Notes under the pieces: generated by a model | Told to the model about the DNA's origin: nothing | Database searches by the model: none | What the model saw: the letters and a program-made list of their open reading frames with translations, nothing else | In this document: positions 17,708 through 25,537 of the stretch, piece by piece | Position numbering within the stretch: the first letter of the stretch is position 1 | Layout: every line of letters begins with the position of its first letter | Translations under genes and position numbers: made by a program | Virus record (IMG/VR): IMGVR_UViG_3300044613_000975 | Location: 1 to 40,825 of that record | Direction: 5' to 3' (one strand) | Length of the DNA: 40,825 bases | Origin: a virus

Positions 17708-18229
17708 TTAGTCCTGATCTGCGACAATATGATTCCATTGCCGATTTTTTTCAATATGACTAATTGTTGTTCGTGTTACGTTTATTGCTTTTGCAAGCAT
17801 GTTTCGGGACAGGGACGGATTGGCAAGTAATATATTTTTAATGGCGGCTACTTGTTCTTCTGATAATTTGCTCCGACCATTGTTGATTCCTTTATGAGTG
17901 CCATGAAGAATAGAATCTTGGCAATTCTTCTCTGGCGTACCCCAAATTAAATTAATGGCTCTATTGTCGTAGCGATTGCCATTCAAATGACGAACAACTT
18001 CAAAGTCTTTGGGCTTGCCATGAAAAGCTTCGCAAACAAGCCTGTGAACCTGTCGAGTTAACCCAGATACGCCGCTGGGATAAAGACCTACCTTTCCGTA
18101 AGGACCAGAAAAATTCACCTTAAGAAGAATCCGCCTGTCGTCTTTGTACTTACAAACGCGACCTTCACTGCTGACCTCATAGAGTCCGTCGGTTTCCGCT
18201 ATGGGCATCCAGGTTTCCTCGTTAGACAT
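17708..18229 (-). CDS. HNH homing endonuclease with NUMOD4 and helix-turn-helix (173 aa)
   Basis: Domains in order: NUMOD4-like TWMPIAETDGLYEVSSEGRV (residues 6-25); HNH core with VHRLVCEAFHG and VRHLNGNRYDNRAINLIW (about 60-100), in which the His and Asn residues would hold the catalytic metal; and a C-terminal helix-turn-helix (LSEEQVAAIKN, LAKAINVTRTTISHIE). This is a free-standing selfish nuclease of the kind found between phage genes. It is on the minus strand inside plus-strand head genes and is AT-richer than they are, both signs of insertion. The recognition site was probably the uninterrupted junction of its neighbours. Confidence 0.92.
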   Translation of the reverse strand: MSNEETWMPIAETDGLYEVSSEGRVCKYKDDRRILLKVNFSGPYGKVGLYPSGVSGLTRQVHRLVCEAFHGKPKDFEVVRHLNGNRYDNRAINLIWGTPEKNCQDSILHGTHKGINNGRSKLSEEQVAAIKNILLANPSLSRNMLAKAINVTRTTISHIEKNRQWNHIVADQD

Positions 18230-18271: not shown

Positions 18272-18511
18272 ATGAGTTCAAGGAAGCAAAGGCAAAAAAT
18301 TGCTCGTGTTTTGCGCGAGTTCAAGGCTGGTACGCTCAAAAGCAGTACCGGAGAGAAAGTGGCCAATCAGCGTCAAGCGATTGCCATTGCCCTTTCCGAG
18401 GCTGGCATGAGTAAGGAAGGCAAAAGCGATGAATACTGGGATTCTTACGTCCTAACGCTCGCGGAGGAGGAGGAAGAGGAGGAAGAGGAGGAATACATCC
18501 CAAAGGACTGA
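18272..18511 (+). CDS. Zero-frame product with DUF6496-like domain and poly-Glu tail (79 aa)
   Basis: Residues 1-48 match a small domain seen in many phage proteins (IARVLREFKAGTLKSS, then RQAIAIALSEAGMS); I believe this is DUF6496, function unknown. After it comes an acidic linker with ten consecutive Glu codons, then EYIPKD and stop. The C CCA AAG heptamer at 18499-18505 lies just before the stop, and the -1 frame is open across the stop and onward to 18858. The GAG/GAA run provides AGGAGG (18486-18491) seven bases upstream of the heptamer, comparable to the internal stimulator of the E. coli dnaX frameshift. The frameshifted product would be about 195 aa. Confidence 0.72.
   Translation: MSSRKQRQKIARVLREFKAGTLKSSTGEKVANQRQAIAIALSEAGMSKEGKSDEYWDSYVLTLAEEEEEEEEEEYIPKD
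18499..18505 (+). promoter_or_regulatory. Candidate -1 ribosomal frameshift site C CCA AAG
   Basis: In the upstream frame the codons are ATC CCA AAG GAC TGA, so the heptamer has the X XXY YYZ form in the correct phase and sits one codon before the stop. AGGAGG lies seven bases 5'. A possible 3' stem begins 11 bases on: GACGCG 18517-18522 with CGCGTC 18560-18565. The identical heptamer occurs at the expected place in the tail-chaperone gene at 25115. Confidence 0.6.
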
Positions 18512-18858
18512 GCCTTGACGCGGCTAGCTTTGCCCCTCCATCGTCCGTGAGGGCTGCAGCGCGTCGAGGCCTGGAACTACGCAAGAAGCACGGCAAGGGC
18601 GGATTGACCACGCAAGAGGCTGGTGAGCAAGGAATTGGCAGTGGAGTGGCACGAGCCACGAGTTTAGCCAATGGAGAGGCGCTGAGCTACGAAACCATTA
18701 AGCGCATGGCGGCCTTTTTTTCGCGGCATGAGAAGAACAAAGGGGGAGGGGAGGATGATGCTGGTTACATTGCCTGGCTTTTGTGGGGCGGTGATTCGGG
18801 AAGAGTGTGGGCCAATCGCGTCATTGGGCAACAGGAAAGGAAGCGGGCCGCCCGTTAA
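18505..18858 (+). CDS. -1 frame extension: RAAARRGLELRKK-type domain
   Basis: Read in the -1 frame from the slip site, this adds 117 residues. The conserved-looking part starts SFAPPSSVRAAARRGLELRK, then GVARATSLANG, SYETIKRMAAFFSRHE and YIAWLLWGGDSGRVWANRV, a domain recurring in phage and prophage proteins near head genes; function unknown. The only standard start in this frame is GTG 18547, which would cut off the FAPPSS part. There is no ATG, GTG or TTG between the frame's previous stop (18430) and 18547, which favours expression by frameshifting. An independent GTG start from 18547 (103 aa) remains possible and both products could be made. Confidence 0.62.
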   Translation, partial: GLSLDAASFAPPSSVRAAARRGLELRKKHGKGGLTTQEAGEQGIGSGVARATSLANGEALSYETIKRMAAFFSRHEKNKGGGEDDAGYIAWLLWGGDSGRVWANRVIGQQERKRAAR

Positions 18859-18884: not shown

Positions 18885-19199
18885 ATGGAAAGTCCTGACC
18901 TTGACTATTTTGACGATGGCGAGGATGAGGATTTTAGTGTAGAAGACGCCTTGCGTGTTCTGAGCCTCAATTCTCACCGCAATACAACGCGATGGGCAGT
19001 GGTCAGCAAGCAACTGTTTGTCAATGGTCGTGCCACTGAGGATCAAAACTATGTGGAACCACAGTACGAAAGGCCAGATCCTGAGTTTGAGGAGCACCAT
19101 CGCATGTTGATCTTTGAGGCAATCGCAGTGGCCAAAGCCTACATCATGGCCGGGATTGAAGCCGAGATTCAGCAGACGAGGGAATCTTCAGGGCTATAA
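18885..19199 (+). CDS. Hypothetical acidic protein (104 aa)
   Basis: Not recognised. It starts MESPDLDYFDDGEDEDFS, very acidic, followed by helical segments (DALRVLSL, TRWAVVSKQLFVNG) and a C-terminal helix. An in-frame GTG lies further up, but the residues added look like read-through of the previous gene. Its last 56 bases overlap the converging repressor gene on the minus strand, so transcription of one may interfere with the other. Confidence 0.55.
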   Translation: MESPDLDYFDDGEDEDFSVEDALRVLSLNSHRNTTRWAVVSKQLFVNGRATEDQNYVEPQYERPDPEFEEHHRMLIFEAIAVAKAYIMAGIEAEIQQTRESSGL

Positions 19200-19449
19200 A
19201 GTTTGGATAGCCGAGAAGCCATAGCACAGACATCGTGAAAAGGCCACTCAAGGTGGCAATTTGCACTGCACTGGGCTCCAGGTCTCCGCTTTCCATCCGA
19301 GAGTAGGAGGACTGACTAATTTCCAGCCTTGCGGCCACATTGCGTTGTGAGAGGCCGCTATTGAGCCGTGCTTGCTTGATGCGAGACGCAACGGCAATGC
19401 GCCGTTGGGAATGGGGCAACTTGAGCAAATTGACTTGGTGATTCTCCAT
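19144..19449 (-). CDS. XRE-family (Cro/cI-type) transcriptional regulator (101 aa)
   Basis: A helix-turn-helix of the HTH_3 type covers residues about 20-72: IKQARLNSGLSQRNVAARLE, then ISQSSYSRMESGDLEPS and a third helix. The C-terminal remainder (LFTMSVLWLLGYPN) may form the dimer interface. Start ATG 19449 is chosen; a GTG at 19461 would add four residues. It is transcribed against the head genes from a start next to an inverted repeat (19459-19482), and its 3' end runs under the preceding plus-strand gene. It could be a lysogeny or timing switch for the capsid operon, or a selfish passenger; no integrase is visible in this window. Confidence 0.85.
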   Translation of the reverse strand: MENHQVNLLKLPHSQRRIAVASRIKQARLNSGLSQRNVAARLEISQSSYSRMESGDLEPSAVQIATLSGLFTMSVLWLLGYPNFIALKIPSSAESRLQSRP

Positions 19450-19458
19450 TGCTTGATT

Positions 19459-19482
19459 CACTATTGAATCATGTTAATAGTG
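19459..19482. promoter_or_regulatory. Inverted repeat, candidate operator
   Basis: CACTATT (19459-19465) and AATAGTG (19476-19482) form a 7-bp dyad with a ten-base spacer; a second dyad GATTC/GAATC (19455-19459/19466-19470) overlaps it. The site sits directly upstream of the repressor ATG and 29 bases before the protease/scaffold gene, the right place to control both. Confidence 0.55.
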
Positions 19483-19510: not shown

Positions 19511-20698
19511 ATGAGCAATACTTCTTTTCGCTACGACGTAGCGCCGATTGAGAAGTACGAGCTAACCCCCGAGGGTTATCTGCGGCTTCATGCCACAATC
19601 GCTCGCACTGGCGTTCAGCATTACTCCAATGCTGACGGTTCAATTCGGCGTGAATATCGTGCCGCTGAAGATGTGGCGCTCCCTGAAAGTCTTGCTTCTT
19701 TTGCGGGCAAGAGCGTAACTGACGAACATCCCCCGGTCCTGCTTGATAGCGCCAACACCACAAACTATCAAAAGGGCTTCACTGGCTCTGAGATTGTTTA
19801 TGACAATGGTTTTGTCCGAGCAGTTATGACAATTACAGACCAAGAACTGATCGACAAGATTCAACGGGGTGATGCTACGGAAGTTAGCGCAGGCTATCGA
19901 GTGTCCTTTGATGCCAACCCTGGCACCACTCCTGATGGTGAACCGTATGACGGTCGCCAAAAGGAAATCATTGGCAATCATGTAGCCGTTGTTAAGACCG
20001 GGCGAGCAGGCCCGCAAGTGAAATTGCATCTTGACCGACAGGATGCCGCCGATCCTTCTCTTCTCAATTCTGGAGATTCTCTTATGACTACCGCAAAGGT
20101 GGTCTTTGATGGCGCTGACTTTGAAGTGAGTGAGGGCGTTGCCCTTGCTGTCAACAAAGAACGCGCTGATGCAAAGACCTCTTACGAGGCCATGAAAAAG
20201 CAGTACGACGAAATGTGTGGCAAAGCCTCCAAACTTAAGGAGGAAATGGATGCCATGGAAAAGGAAATGAAAGGCAAAATGGATGCCGCTGATGGTCGTG
20301 CTGATGCCCTCGCTGTTGAAACTGAATCGCTCAGGGCTGAACTGGAAGCGGCTAAAGCCGTGAATGTTGACAGCCTTGTCGAAGAGCGCATTGCCCTGAT
20401 CGAAAAGGCCAAGCCTGTCCTTGACAGCGCTTATTCCTTTGCTGGCAAGTCCGCTCGTGAAATCATGGTCGATGCCGTTAAGGCAGTTCGTGGTGATTCC
20501 ATGAATCTGTCTGAACGGTCTGACGACTACGTTCAAGCCGCTTTTGACACCATTTCCGTTGACGACCGTAAGGATTCGTCTACTGGTCCTCTGCGCAATG
20601 CCGTCGCATCCGTGATGGCAACCATTCCCCAGGACACGTATCAGGAAACGGTGGGAAAAGCCTACCTCCGTCCTCTCACCGCTTCTAAAGGAGCCTGA
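19511..20698 (+). CDS. Prohead protease (DUF2213) fused to scaffold (395 aa)
   Basis: Residues 1-180 match DUF2213: YLRLHATIARTGVQHY, LASFAGKSVTDEHPP, GDATEVSAGYRV and a histidine in IGNHVAVVKTGRAG. Members are thought to be capsid maturation proteases; H72 or H159 and nearby Ser or Asp are candidate catalytic residues, but I cannot fix the triad. Residues about 215-300 are a Lys/Glu/Met-rich coiled coil typical of internal scaffold, with a helical C-terminal capsid-binding part. The protease would cut itself and the scaffold out of the prohead. It precedes the decoration and capsid genes. The candidate operator lies just upstream. Confidence 0.82.
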   Translation: MSNTSFRYDVAPIEKYELTPEGYLRLHATIARTGVQHYSNADGSIRREYRAAEDVALPESLASFAGKSVTDEHPPVLLDSANTTNYQKGFTGSEIVYDNGFVRAVMTITDQELIDKIQRGDATEVSAGYRVSFDANPGTTPDGEPYDGRQKEIIGNHVAVVKTGRAGPQVKLHLDRQDAADPSLLNSGDSLMTTAKVVFDGADFEVSEGVALAVNKERADAKTSYEAMKKQYDEMCGKASKLKEEMDAMEKEMKGKMDAADGRADALAVETESLRAELEAAKAVNVDSLVEERIALIEKAKPVLDSAYSFAGKSAREIMVDAVKAVRGDSMNLSERSDDYVQAAFDTISVDDRKDSSTGPLRNAVASVMATIPQDTYQETVGKAYLRPLTASKGA

Positions 20699-20701
20699 CC
20701 C

Positions 20702-21262
20702 ATGGCCGTTGCTTTCACTGCGTCTGGCACCCCCACTGTGGGCGGTGTGCAGACTTCCTATCCCCTCGTTCACGACGCCTTCCTGGAAGGTCAACTGGCC
20801 GATGCCCGCAACAAGGTGATTGACTCTTTCGTCAATGAAACCTCTGGCGTGGTGGCTTTCGGCAACCTGCTGGTTTGGAATAGTGGCAGCACTACTGCTG
20901 ATTCCGCTCGCACCATCTCCGGCACCACTGGCACTGTTGTTGGCCTGAACATTCTCACTTACGTTGACGAAACTGCCCGTGACGCCAATAGCCGCCCCGG
21001 CGCGAAAGATCGTCAACTGATGAACGTTTTGCGTCAAGGTGCTGCTGTGGTTTATGTCCATGGCGCCGTTGATCCTTCTACTCCTGTTCGTGTCATTCAC
21101 ACCGCTTCCGGTGTGCAGTATGCCGGTCAATTCTCGGCTTCTGCCGTTAGTGGCCGCACCGCCACTCTTTCTAATGCCGCCTACCTGTCCAAGACCACTG
21201 GCAGTGGACTGGCAGTGCTGGAACTGAATGGCCCCACTTTCACTCTCACCGCCAACACCTGA
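20702..21262 (+). CDS. Probable head decoration / cement protein (186 aa)
   Basis: AAGGAG at 20689-20694 gives a good ribosome binding site for ATG 20702. The product is rich in Gly, Ala, Thr and Val, with beta-strand character; QTSYPLVHDAFLEGQLADA and GNLLVWNSGS resemble cement proteins such as P22-like gp24-type structural proteins placed next to the capsid gene in many siphoviruses. Its position between protease/scaffold and capsid supports this. It should bind the outer capsid surface and stabilise it. The C-terminus is short and Thr-rich. Confidence 0.68.
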   Translation: MAVAFTASGTPTVGGVQTSYPLVHDAFLEGQLADARNKVIDSFVNETSGVVAFGNLLVWNSGSTTADSARTISGTTGTVVGLNILTYVDETARDANSRPGAKDRQLMNVLRQGAAVVYVHGAVDPSTPVRVIHTASGVQYAGQFSASAVSGRTATLSNAAYLSKTTGSGLAVLELNGPTFTLTANT

Positions 21263-21269
21263 GGTAACT

Positions 21270-22184
21270 ATGTCTGATTATCGTATGGACGAGGCGGGAC
21301 TGTTTCTTCAGCGCCAACTGGAGTACATTCGCCCGCAAGTGTTTGAGACGGCTTACGCCGACATCAAATACCCCACCCTTTTGCCTGTCACCAGTGAGGC
21401 TGGCCCCGGCGCCCAGCAGTTCACCTATCGGGTGATGGACAGCACCGGTAAGTTTGACTTCATTGCTGACAATGCTGATGACCTGCCGCGCTCTGACGTG
21501 AGCCAGGTCGAGAAGTCAATCTACTTCCGCTCCATCGGTGGTTCGTTTGGCTACACCGTCCAAGAACTGCGTGCCGCTCAAATGGCCAACGTGGCTCTTG
21601 AGTCGCGTCGTGCTGCAGCGGTTCGCCGGGCTTACGAAGAGAAAGTGGAAGACATCGCCATGTTTGGTGATGTTTCCACTAATCTCACTGGCTTCTTCAA
21701 CAACCCCACTGTGGATGTTGTGACTGCCGACAAGTGGTTTGACACCGCAAGTGTCACCACCACTGAAATGCTTGAACTGCTGAACTATGGTTCCACTGCC
21801 ATTGTGAATGGTTCAAACATGAAGGAGCAGCCTGACACCCTGCTGCTTCCTTGGGTTGACTATCAAAAGGTCTCCTCCACTCGCAACAGTGATTCCAGTG
21901 ATCTCACCGTCCTGGAATACTTCCTGCGCACCAACCCCTACATCCGCAACATTGAGCCCATCCTGCAACTGGACAACAGCAAGACCACGGGCAAGCTCAA
22001 CACCCGTCGGATGGTGTTCTACAAGCGGGACCCTGAAAAGCTCCAACTGCACATTCCGCAGCCCCTGGAACTGTTCCCGCCCCAGCAACGCAACCTGCAG
22101 TACATCGTTCCCGCCCATGCTCGCGTGGGTGGCGTAGCGATTTACTACTCCAAGAGCGTTGTCTACGTGCAGCGCAGCACCTGA
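21270..22184 (+). CDS. Major capsid protein (DUF2184 type, 304 aa)
   Basis: The product starts MSDYRMDEAGLFLQRQLEYI after GAGGT (21261-21265) at good spacing; codon use is that of a highly expressed gene (many GAC, AAC, CTG codons). Typical DUF2184 blocks are visible: YRVMDSTGKFDF near 52, DVSQVEKSIYFRSIGGSFGY near 75, then MFGDVSTNLTGFFNNP near 135, and YYSKSVVYVQ at the end. The HK97-like fold is expected. No N-terminal delta domain is present, which agrees with a separate scaffold in the DUF2213 gene. An in-frame ATG at 21228 lies inside the decoration gene and is not used. Confidence 0.87.
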   Translation: MSDYRMDEAGLFLQRQLEYIRPQVFETAYADIKYPTLLPVTSEAGPGAQQFTYRVMDSTGKFDFIADNADDLPRSDVSQVEKSIYFRSIGGSFGYTVQELRAAQMANVALESRRAAAVRRAYEEKVEDIAMFGDVSTNLTGFFNNPTVDVVTADKWFDTASVTTTEMLELLNYGSTAIVNGSNMKEQPDTLLLPWVDYQKVSSTRNSDSSDLTVLEYFLRTNPYIRNIEPILQLDNSKTTGKLNTRRMVFYKRDPEKLQLHIPQPLELFPPQQRNLQYIVPAHARVGGVAIYYSKSVVYVQRST

Positions 22185-24388: not shown

Positions 24389-24606
24389 AAATGCTGTCAA
24401 GCGATTGCGGTAGCGCATGGCTTTTCAATGTAAAGAGAGAAGAGGATCAGCTAGTTGCTGGCCTTGCCTGCTTCGTCAGCAATTCTCCGGAGCAAGTCAT
24501 TGTGCAATGGAGAGGCGAAAGGCTAATCCTTGGACTTCCCCATCGTGCCGTGTCTAATCCCATGCCGTGTCGTGTGCTGAATGCTAGACTTGCGCTGCTT
24601 AATTGA
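24385..24606 (+). CDS. Hypothetical tail-region protein (73 aa)
   Basis: ATGA overlap with the preceding gene. The small protein MKMLSSDCGSAWLFNVKREE appears to be a single beta sheet, with EQVIVQWRGERLILGLP in its middle. It is probably an accessory of tail assembly by position only. No family was recognised. Confidence 0.55.
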   Translation: MKMLSSDCGSAWLFNVKREEDQLVAGLACFVSNSPEQVIVQWRGERLILGLPHRAVSNPMPCRVLNARLALLN

Positions 24607-24611
24607 TTTTC

Positions 24612-25133
24612 ATGAGCCAATACAGCGAGTTTTTCTTGATTGGCAGCCCAAAGTATGCTGCCATTGCTGCTGCTTTGCGGCTTCGCAGTTACGGCAGTTG
24701 GCTGACTGAGGAACTGTGGCTGCGTGATGCGCAGACCAAAAAGCGGGCTGGGTTTTCAATGAAGGCCATTCGTTTGGCGCGACGCATTGCGGCACAGAAA
24801 GGCATTAGCGAGGACGATGCGTTTGACCTCCTTCAGTCTGATGGCCCCGAAAGGCAAGAGGTGCTGGGGGACTTTGCAGAAGAAGCGGCAGCGTTGTTTG
24901 CTCTCCTTCCATCGCCTCAAGAGCAATTTGAGGAACTGGTGACAAAGTTCTTCCAGAATCGCGGGGAGGTGAAAAAGGGCACGGAATGGACCTCTACGCC
25001 CGACTGGAGCCGGGAGGACACTGGCAAGCTCACCAAGACCATGCTCGATGCCGTAGAGGCTTTCATGGCCCAGGAGGAGGGCTCTAGCAATACTGAGACC
25101 GAAGAGGACGACGCCCCAAAGGAACAAGGCTAG
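24612..25133 (+). CDS. Tail assembly chaperone, short form (gpG-like, 173 aa)
   Basis: Position before the tape measure gene and the frameshift architecture identify it. The product starts MSQYSEFFLIGSPKY and is mostly helical, with an acidic disordered C-terminus (SSNTETEEDDAPKEQG). C CCA AAG at 25115-25121 in the right phase precedes the stop by three codons, and the -1 frame stays open to 25537. As in lambda G and G-T, the short form should coat the tape measure and the long form recruit tail tube subunits. TTG 24603 is a possible earlier start; ATG 24612 is preferred. Confidence 0.8.
   Translation: MSQYSEFFLIGSPKYAAIAAALRLRSYGSWLTEELWLRDAQTKKRAGFSMKAIRLARRIAAQKGISEDDAFDLLQSDGPERQEVLGDFAEEAAALFALLPSPQEQFEELVTKFFQNRGEVKKGTEWTSTPDWSREDTGKLTKTMLDAVEAFMAQEEGSSNTETEEDDAPKEQG
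25115..25121 (+). promoter_or_regulatory. -1 ribosomal frameshift site C CCA AAG (tail chaperone)
   Basis: Zero-frame codons GCC CCA AAG GAA CAA GGC TAG show the heptamer in X XXY YYZ phase. AGAGGA (25103-25108) ends six bases upstream. A 7-bp stem (25164-25170/25179-25185) lies downstream but is rather distant. Confidence 0.78.
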
Positions 25134-25537
25134 AGCGGCTAGAAAGATACACTGAAGCCACGTTAGCCCAGTCCACGGATTGGGCTGCGTTGTATTGCCG
25201 CATTCAGGCACTTGCCATTGCCGATCCCATGTTTCATGCGGAGCGGTTTGGGAAGGTGCCAATCAAGTTGTTGCAAGCCATGCTGGAGCAGGCCAGCACA
25301 GAGCAGCAACGCCTAATTAACGCCCACAGCATGAGCACGGCCAAGCTCGCCGTAACAGTTGTTCGGGCACTAGGCGGGAAAACGGCACAAGCTAAAGTGG
25401 ATGACTTCTTGCCATTTGAGCAAGCTAAGCCTAATGCCATCAGTAGCGAAACCAAGGAGGCCCTGCAATGGGCGCTGAAAACTCATAGGCTTCCCCCTGT
25501 TATCGTGGGACTAATTGGGGCGGAACTAGCACGCTAA
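25121..25537 (+). CDS. Tail assembly chaperone, frameshift extension (gpT-like)
   Basis: Reading in the -1 frame after the slip adds 138 residues to give a product of about 308 aa. The first part (RLERYTEATLAQSTDWAALY) runs directly on from the slip site, then IADPMFHAERFGKVPIK and a helical C-terminus ending VGLIGAELAR. A TTG at 25190 could start a shorter protein but would lose the first 23 residues. Its stop overlaps the next gene (TAATG). Confidence 0.76.
   Translation, partial: GTRLERLERYTEATLAQSTDWAALYCRIQALAIADPMFHAERFGKVPIKLLQAMLEQASTEQQRLINAHSMSTAKLAVTVVRALGGKTAQAKVDDFLPFEQAKPNAISSETKEALQWALKTHRLPPVIVGLIGAELAR

Follow-up and report, generated by a model that had tools for sequence, protein, structure and literature searches.

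The locus described here raises the question of whether two overlapping reading frames in the head region of a phage genome are joined by a programmed -1 frameshift. The window, as we call the whole stretch of DNA that was analysed, is a 40,825-base IMG/VR virus record. It probably derives from a cyanophage, its gene order and both proteins being like those of Synechococcus phage S-CBS4. In the 0 frame, direct reading gives an ORF at 18272-18511 (plus strand, like all elements of the frameshift locus given below), whose predicted short product of 79 amino acids consists of a DUF6496 domain and an acidic linker of ten consecutive Glu codons (18464-18493). The last Glu codons and a TAC immediately precede ATC CCA AAG GAC TGA, in which the stop TGA occupies 18509-18511. 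The heptamer C_CCA_AAG (18499-18505), assigned by reading and by its homologues, has the slippery X_XXY_YYZ form in 0-frame phase and lies 5' of the 0-frame stop, as expected of -1 frameshifting. No stop interrupts the -1 frame between 18433 and 18858. Its part from 18505 to 18858, which begins GLSLDAASFAPP..., encodes a second domain, here domain 2, and the predicted fusion, join(18272..18505,18505..18858), has 195 amino acids. In these points direct reading agrees with the first-pass annotation, which had placed C CCA AAG in slip phase at this 0-frame end and had described the -1 frame as open through the stop to 18858.

Profile searches gave further support to this reading of the two domains. 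In the case of the 0-frame protein, a Pfam profile search matched DUF6496 (PF20106) with an E of 7.9e-8 and 33 bits against a cut-off of 24, so that the earlier assignment of a DUF6496-like domain followed by a ten-Glu run holds. Domain 2 gave a match to phrog_2859 (E 1.1e-16), a family of unknown function, and the frame of domain 2 carries a coding signature from the slip site onwards. The window's domain 2 had no Pfam match, and an NCBIfam search with four proteins, domain 2 included, gave no match.

Relatives of domain 2 were collected from IMG/VR with three queries (the window, S-CBS4 and locus L086), all of which began at the slip site and gave the best 80 of 334, 526 and 425 relatives; S-CBS4 itself was added. 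This resulted in 239 loci, window included, of which six were dropped for short flanks, and grouping the remaining 233 at 95% identity over 240 bases left 106 clusters. The clusters are related to one another and are mostly metagenomic contigs; one contig may give several loci (e.g. L086, L155 and L167), and the clustering merges such duplicates. The counts do not cover L001 (the window itself), L003-L006, L244-L323 of the Limnohabitans type, or at least 120 stretches found by pattern search, the last being excluded because the pattern selects the feature itself. A larger tally that does include the pattern-search loci has 194 clusters: 115 shift-type, 15 continuous-frame and 64 other.

The 106 non-redundant junctions comprise 88 of shift type, with an in-phase X_XXA_AAG, 16 in which both domains share one continuous frame, and two with frame-breaking one-base differences. 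Four assignments were made by eye: L045 and L067, where the script had taken a later in-frame stop, and L196, where the heptamer is kept and the 0-frame stop is mutated to a sense codon, were relabelled as shift-type, and L170 as continuous. Thus, denominators of 85 refer to the shift-type rows before relabelling, 88 to those after it, and 86 to those without L045 and L067. The first-pass annotation had proposed two checks on homologues. The first, whether some phages encode both domains as one continuous frame, is answered by the 16 junctions of that kind. The second, whether the heptamer is conserved at the junction, depends on how it is read: the X_XXA_AAG class is widespread, but the exact C CCA AAG is found in only 10 shift-type junctions, next to 63 with AAAAAAG and 15 with GGGAAAG.

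Among the 85 script-classified rows, the heptamer lies three bases from the stop in 77 and zero bases in 8, and in L045 and L067 the 0-frame stop likewise follows three bases past it. Three controls were drawn from the same material. Among 1757 other ORF ends in the same loci, at the same distance, XXXYYYZ was found in 22 and XXXAAAG in 3; among the domain 2 stops of these loci the figures were 3/88 and 0/88; and an in-phase XXXAAAG was seen at none of 5259 upstream 0-frame codons outside the site. All 88 heptamers have AAG as their Lys codon, a bias partly built in by the requirement of XXXAAAG for the shift class, and elsewhere in the same ORFs AAG makes up 61% of Lys codons, GGA 21% of Gly codons and CCA 24% of Pro codons. 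None of the six script-unclassified rows had XXXAAAA or another near-heptamer with A in that place. Only L074 and L120 of the 90 non-continuous junctions do not belong to the shift class, and in both the heptamer place is free of non-slippery codon pairs for Gly-Lys, Pro-Lys or Lys-Lys. Lys, Gly and Pro interchange at the heptamer; slipperiness is conserved there rather than the amino acid.

On the 3' side of the heptamer, an 8-bp hairpin was found 5 nt downstream in 84 shift-type rows, all of them outside the window's own clade, and it covaries. In these rows 97.7% of the cells are paired, compared to 92.2% in shuffled alignments, with none of 500 shuffles as high; the covariation score and the number of double-changed cells were likewise reached by 0/500. 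On two other measures some shuffles did reach the observed value: 13/500 for the count of pairs showing a double change, and 6/500 for the count of additional pair types. When the hairpin partner was slid along, 56-69% was paired, and RNAalifold alone recovered seven of the eight pairs. Most of the covariation comes from one pair (C-G in 36 rows, A-U in 34, U-G in 8, G-U in 1, unpaired in 5), and one double change is seen in a second pair. Because this main pair partly depends on a choice between Ala and Ser, it was tested on a tree of the downstream DNA, where the change was concerted in about 6.5 of 7 independent comparisons and opposite in none (median p 0.016, range 0.016-0.063).

The hairpin was also compared with that of the continuous-frame junctions. 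All eight pairs are present in 70/88 shift-type rows vs 2/16 continuous-frame rows, and seven or more pairs in 84 vs 10, so that the hairpin of the continuous-frame junctions is weakened, not gone. Mean folding energies of the short region were -16.6 kcal/mol for the 84 shift-type rows and -7.9 kcal/mol for the 16 continuous-frame ones. A tree test of the shift or continuous state against pairing had the same direction and was not significant (median p 0.125).

The window's clade (the window, L008, L045 and L067; 4 of 88) lacks this conserved hairpin. The 3' stem suggested by the first-pass annotation is therefore not the hairpin of the relatives, although a longer stem-loop is predicted in the window at 18508-18574 (-32.8 kcal/mol, z -1.36, with 16/200 shuffles at least as stable). 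Folding against shuffles gave z -3.46 (0/200 shuffles) for L008, -0.50 for L045 and -1.77 for L067. A long stem-loop in this clade is thus possible, on weak evidence.

Regarding the 5' side, the window has AGGAGG at 18486-18491, within the Glu codons, as a possible internal Shine-Dalgarno-like stimulator. It was originally likened to dnaX in its distance of seven bases from the heptamer; the 7 nt were found, but the dnaX spacing is given as 10 nt (PMC5009743). In the homologues, a match of 4 or more nt located 4-14 nt upstream of the heptamer was counted as Shine-Dalgarno-like, and such matches occur in 45/88 shift-type and 6/16 continuous-frame junctions, compared to about 10% of random positions. 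By heptamer, the proportions are 9/10 for CCCAAAG, 11/15 for GGGAAAG and 25/63 for AAAAAAG. Since the continuous-frame rows also have them, acidic codons alone explain part of the excess. Of the two roles initially given to the poly-Glu tract, linker and recoding stimulator, the second is consequently less well supported, and in many homologues (L014, L024, L039, L089 and others) an extra short segment like ESAGEKRCKAYL intervenes between the acidic stretch and the slip site. Pfam matched nothing in this segment in L014 or L086, the two proteins searched.

The continuous-frame relatives offer insight into how the junction has evolved. On the DNA tree, the continuous state requires at least 9 changes, 7 of them forced by well-supported branches, and the heptamer at least 14. 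Within the part compared, domain 2 has the same protein sequence in shift-type L224 as in continuous-frame L184 and L202. Recombination between the halves may be among the causes of the changes of state. L086 is in frame by virtue of an additional A within a homopolymer, seen on a single contig, and this state may be an assembly error. For PF20106, the continuous fusion L018 scores 18.9 bits, below the cut-off, and L086 and L014 score 33.5 and 38. As 16/106 junctions are predicted to make the fusion in one frame, the short product is, to judge from these genes, dispensable in some phages.

We then considered how domain 2 would be translated. Over the 13 codons past the slip site (86 rows), mean amino acid identity is 80% in the -1 frame vs 56% and 53% in the others, no row has a -1-frame stop, and variation is mainly at third positions; an overlapping open frame under protein-level selection is therefore present from the slip site. 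A conserved stretch, [L]RGDAESF, precedes any start codon in nearly all rows. This agrees with the earlier observation that the conserved opening of domain 2 lies before its start codon: in the window, the first ATG, GTG or TTG of the -1 frame is the GTG at 18547-18549, inside the conserved stretch FAPPSSV, and it is probably not the real start of domain 2.

The alternative that survives best is that domain 2 is a separate gene, translationally coupled to the stop of the first one and starting at CTG 18508 or GTG 18547. CTG 18508 is in frame and overlaps the TGA, the annotated start in S-CBS4 is a GTG that corresponds to 18547, and distant homologues have their own ATG. However, the codon overlapping the 0-frame stop is CTG in 42/85 rows, while 32/85 have CTA or TTA there, neither of them a start codon; the Val codon equivalent to GTG 18547 is GTG in only 27/85 shift-type homologues; and an ATG, GTG or TTG between slip site and domain is found in 3/85. 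Homologues with a separate, well-conserved start for domain 2, which would speak against frameshifting, are thus absent from this group; in the distant Limnohabitans-type group (L003, L244-L323), domain 2 does mostly begin at its own ATG. Moreover, a coupled start leaves the in-phase heptamer, the hairpin and the in-frame fusions unexplained, and we regard it as improbable.

RNA polymerase rather than the ribosome might also join the frames, by slipping on a run of A. A runs such as AAAAAAG can make RNA polymerase slip, and this is the heptamer in 63/88 shift-type junctions. The window itself has CCCAAAG, with no run longer than three, as part of the 25/88 junctions with CCCAAAG or GGGAAAG, and the site next to the 0-frame stop together with a downstream hairpin fits ribosomal slippage; we regard this alternative as slightly more improbable than a coupled start. 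An assembly error, or a second frame that is no more than the remnant of a dead gene, would suit L074 and L120 (2/106), whose frame-breaking one-base differences, identified by eye against near relatives, may be errors. As a general explanation this is hardly credible: 88 divergent junctions and the isolate S-CBS4 share the arrangement, and the -1 frame is conserved in the manner of a protein.

Altogether, it is very probable that a canonical -1 programmed frameshift joins DUF6496 and domain 2. Ribosomes starting at 18272 would make a short protein with the DUF6496 domain and an acidic tail. A fraction of them would slip back by one base at C_CCA_AAG and read on as GGA CTG AGC CTT ..., giving the 195-residue fusion with domain 2. 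The AGGAGG within the Glu codons and, in most relatives, the 8-bp hairpin 5 nt 3' of the heptamer would probably raise the frequency of slippage.

Downstream of domain 2 there is first a small gene and then an antisense gene of helix-turn-helix type; after these come a head maturation protease with DUF2213 (19511-20698, plus strand, by profile matches), a cement protein and the major capsid protein (21228-22184; PF09950, E 7.7e-56). A homologue of the downstream protease is present in 29/29 shift-type (window included) and 9/9 continuous-frame loci with enough flank, and thus forms a conserved context. The helix-turn-helix gene (HTH_3, E 5e-10; 19144-19461, minus strand) lies between domain 2 and the protease, against the head genes, and has a homologue in the same place in 83/84 shift-type (window included) and 14/14 continuous-frame loci with enough flank. 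Immediately 5' of the frameshift gene, an antisense gene at 17708-18229 (minus strand) encodes an HNH endonuclease with NUMOD4 (PF13392, PF07463). An HNH gene is annotated at the same place in S-CBS4, and homologues were found in 2/72 shift-type (window included) and 0/15 continuous-frame loci with enough flank.

Two identities suggested by known frameshifted genes were rejected. Firstly, the gene is not a lambda-type tail assembly chaperone, as it does not lie just upstream of the tape measure and precedes the DUF2213 protease, cement and major capsid genes. Secondly, it is not a frameshifted major capsid protein, which is encoded by a separate gene.

We infer that slippage takes place in the cell and that both products would work in head assembly, the gene encoding a putative head-assembly factor made in a short and a long form. 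The role in head assembly is suggested because, in phages and haloarchaeal viruses, sequences related to domain 2 form part of proteins annotated as prohead protease, capsid maturation protease, portal or major head/capsid protein, names that are annotations and not tests. Among viral structure models, the matches included ones named prohead protease, XkdF and portal protein. Limnohabitans phage DC31 (L003) has domain 2 at the N-terminus of an XkdF-type protease (Peptidase_S78_2, E 4.1e-24). L003 is the only one with a Pfam head family above the cut-off; six phage proteins other than L018 scanned with Pfam had none above it (in HGTV-1, DUF2213 reached 19.1 bits vs 22). Against a head role, a stand-alone relative in Pseudomonas phage PaBG adjoins a topoisomerase gene and is named putative DNA-binding protein, and Vibrio phage relatives are named DNA methyltransferase or ParB-like. 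The model of the continuous fusion L018 (mean pLDDT 80, pTM 0.56) is nearly all helical, with the acidic linker at low confidence. Searching the PDB by sequence gave one match (8tac_A, E 0.34), and searching it by fold gave none at E 0.001 or better (best Z 4.2); no function was obtained from solved structures.

As a tentative reading, which we hold with somewhat more doubt than assurance, the frameshift would set the ratio of the two forms of a head-assembly factor; the lineage would have moved repeatedly between recoding and in-frame fusion, switching heptamers; and the window's clade would have swapped the hairpin for another stimulator. If the reading of a set ratio is true, the acidic linker would be both a protein spacer and a recoding signal. 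With close relatives that have the fusion in frame, and with variation in the heptamer, the Shine-Dalgarno-like element and the hairpin, the family amounts to a natural experiment that bears on what maintains a frameshift and how one of its parts makes up for another. It is also a first way into the two domains, both of unknown function.

The cultured phage S-CBS4 would be the best test bed for the frameshift. Its gp018 ends ...CGC AGA AAA AAG GGC TAA, with AAAAAAG in phase, followed by the stop and a hairpin, and its gp019 is annotated from the GTG within the conserved stretch. The frameshift was thus apparently missed in this annotation, where gp018 and gp019 stand as two genes and the second start cuts the conserved region.

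Frameshifting in this gene, as predicted here, is new and widely conserved, and its parts are those of canonical bacterial -1 frameshifting. Among the matches listed in a search of the open-access literature (PMC), a frameshift of this gene was not described, and no paper named DUF6496. A pattern search of cellular genome contigs gave 292 matches, none of them confirmed. Recoding in tailed phages is known, among others, from some tail-shaft proteins. Its main known cases are tail chaperones, with some coat proteins (PMC5009743), and PRFect was trained on genomes with tail chaperone frameshifts (PMC10885494). The present locus would add a head-module gene, in a large group of probable cyanophages.

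The window also has a second candidate -1 site, in the region 24603-25537 and at the tail-chaperone place, upstream of a probable tape measure ORF of 1981 amino acids. Here C_CCA_AAG (25115-25121) is in phase, the 0-frame stop TAG is at 25131-25133 and the -1 frame is open to 25537. The S-CBS4 stretch matching this site begins before the end of gp032. The first-pass annotation held that the same heptamer drives the tail-chaperone shift; the heptamer and an open frame are there, and a shift may occur at this candidate site, whose -1 frame has a weak Phage_tail_T match (E 0.11).

In E. coli dnaX the new frame stops soon after the shift, whereas here the -1 frame adds a whole domain. The likeness to dnaX as described in PMC5009743 lies in the heptamer A_AAA_AAG, shared by most homologues, the internal Shine-Dalgarno-like element 5' and the simple hairpin 3'. 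Unlike dnaX, the window's gene is a phage head-region gene with C_CCA_AAG and the shorter Shine-Dalgarno spacing; this heptamer is described as highly shift-prone in E. coli (PMC5009743). Lambda gpG/gpGT is alike in that a small gene of the structural region shifts to -1 close to its 3' end, giving a fusion with a second domain (PMC5009743). By comparison, the window's gene lies in the head module before the maturation protease and not before the tape measure, and no sequence relation was seen.

A head protein of which a fraction carries an extra C-terminal domain is likewise made in T3/T7 gene 10, Lactobacillus phage A2 and Listeria phages (PMC5009743). These cases join a coat protein to an often Ig-like extension, whereas here the capsid gene is separate and the modelled domain 2 consists almost entirely of helices. 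A close parallel is provided by the phage Ig-like extensions, which are sometimes encoded in frame and sometimes reached by a frameshift (PMC5009743).
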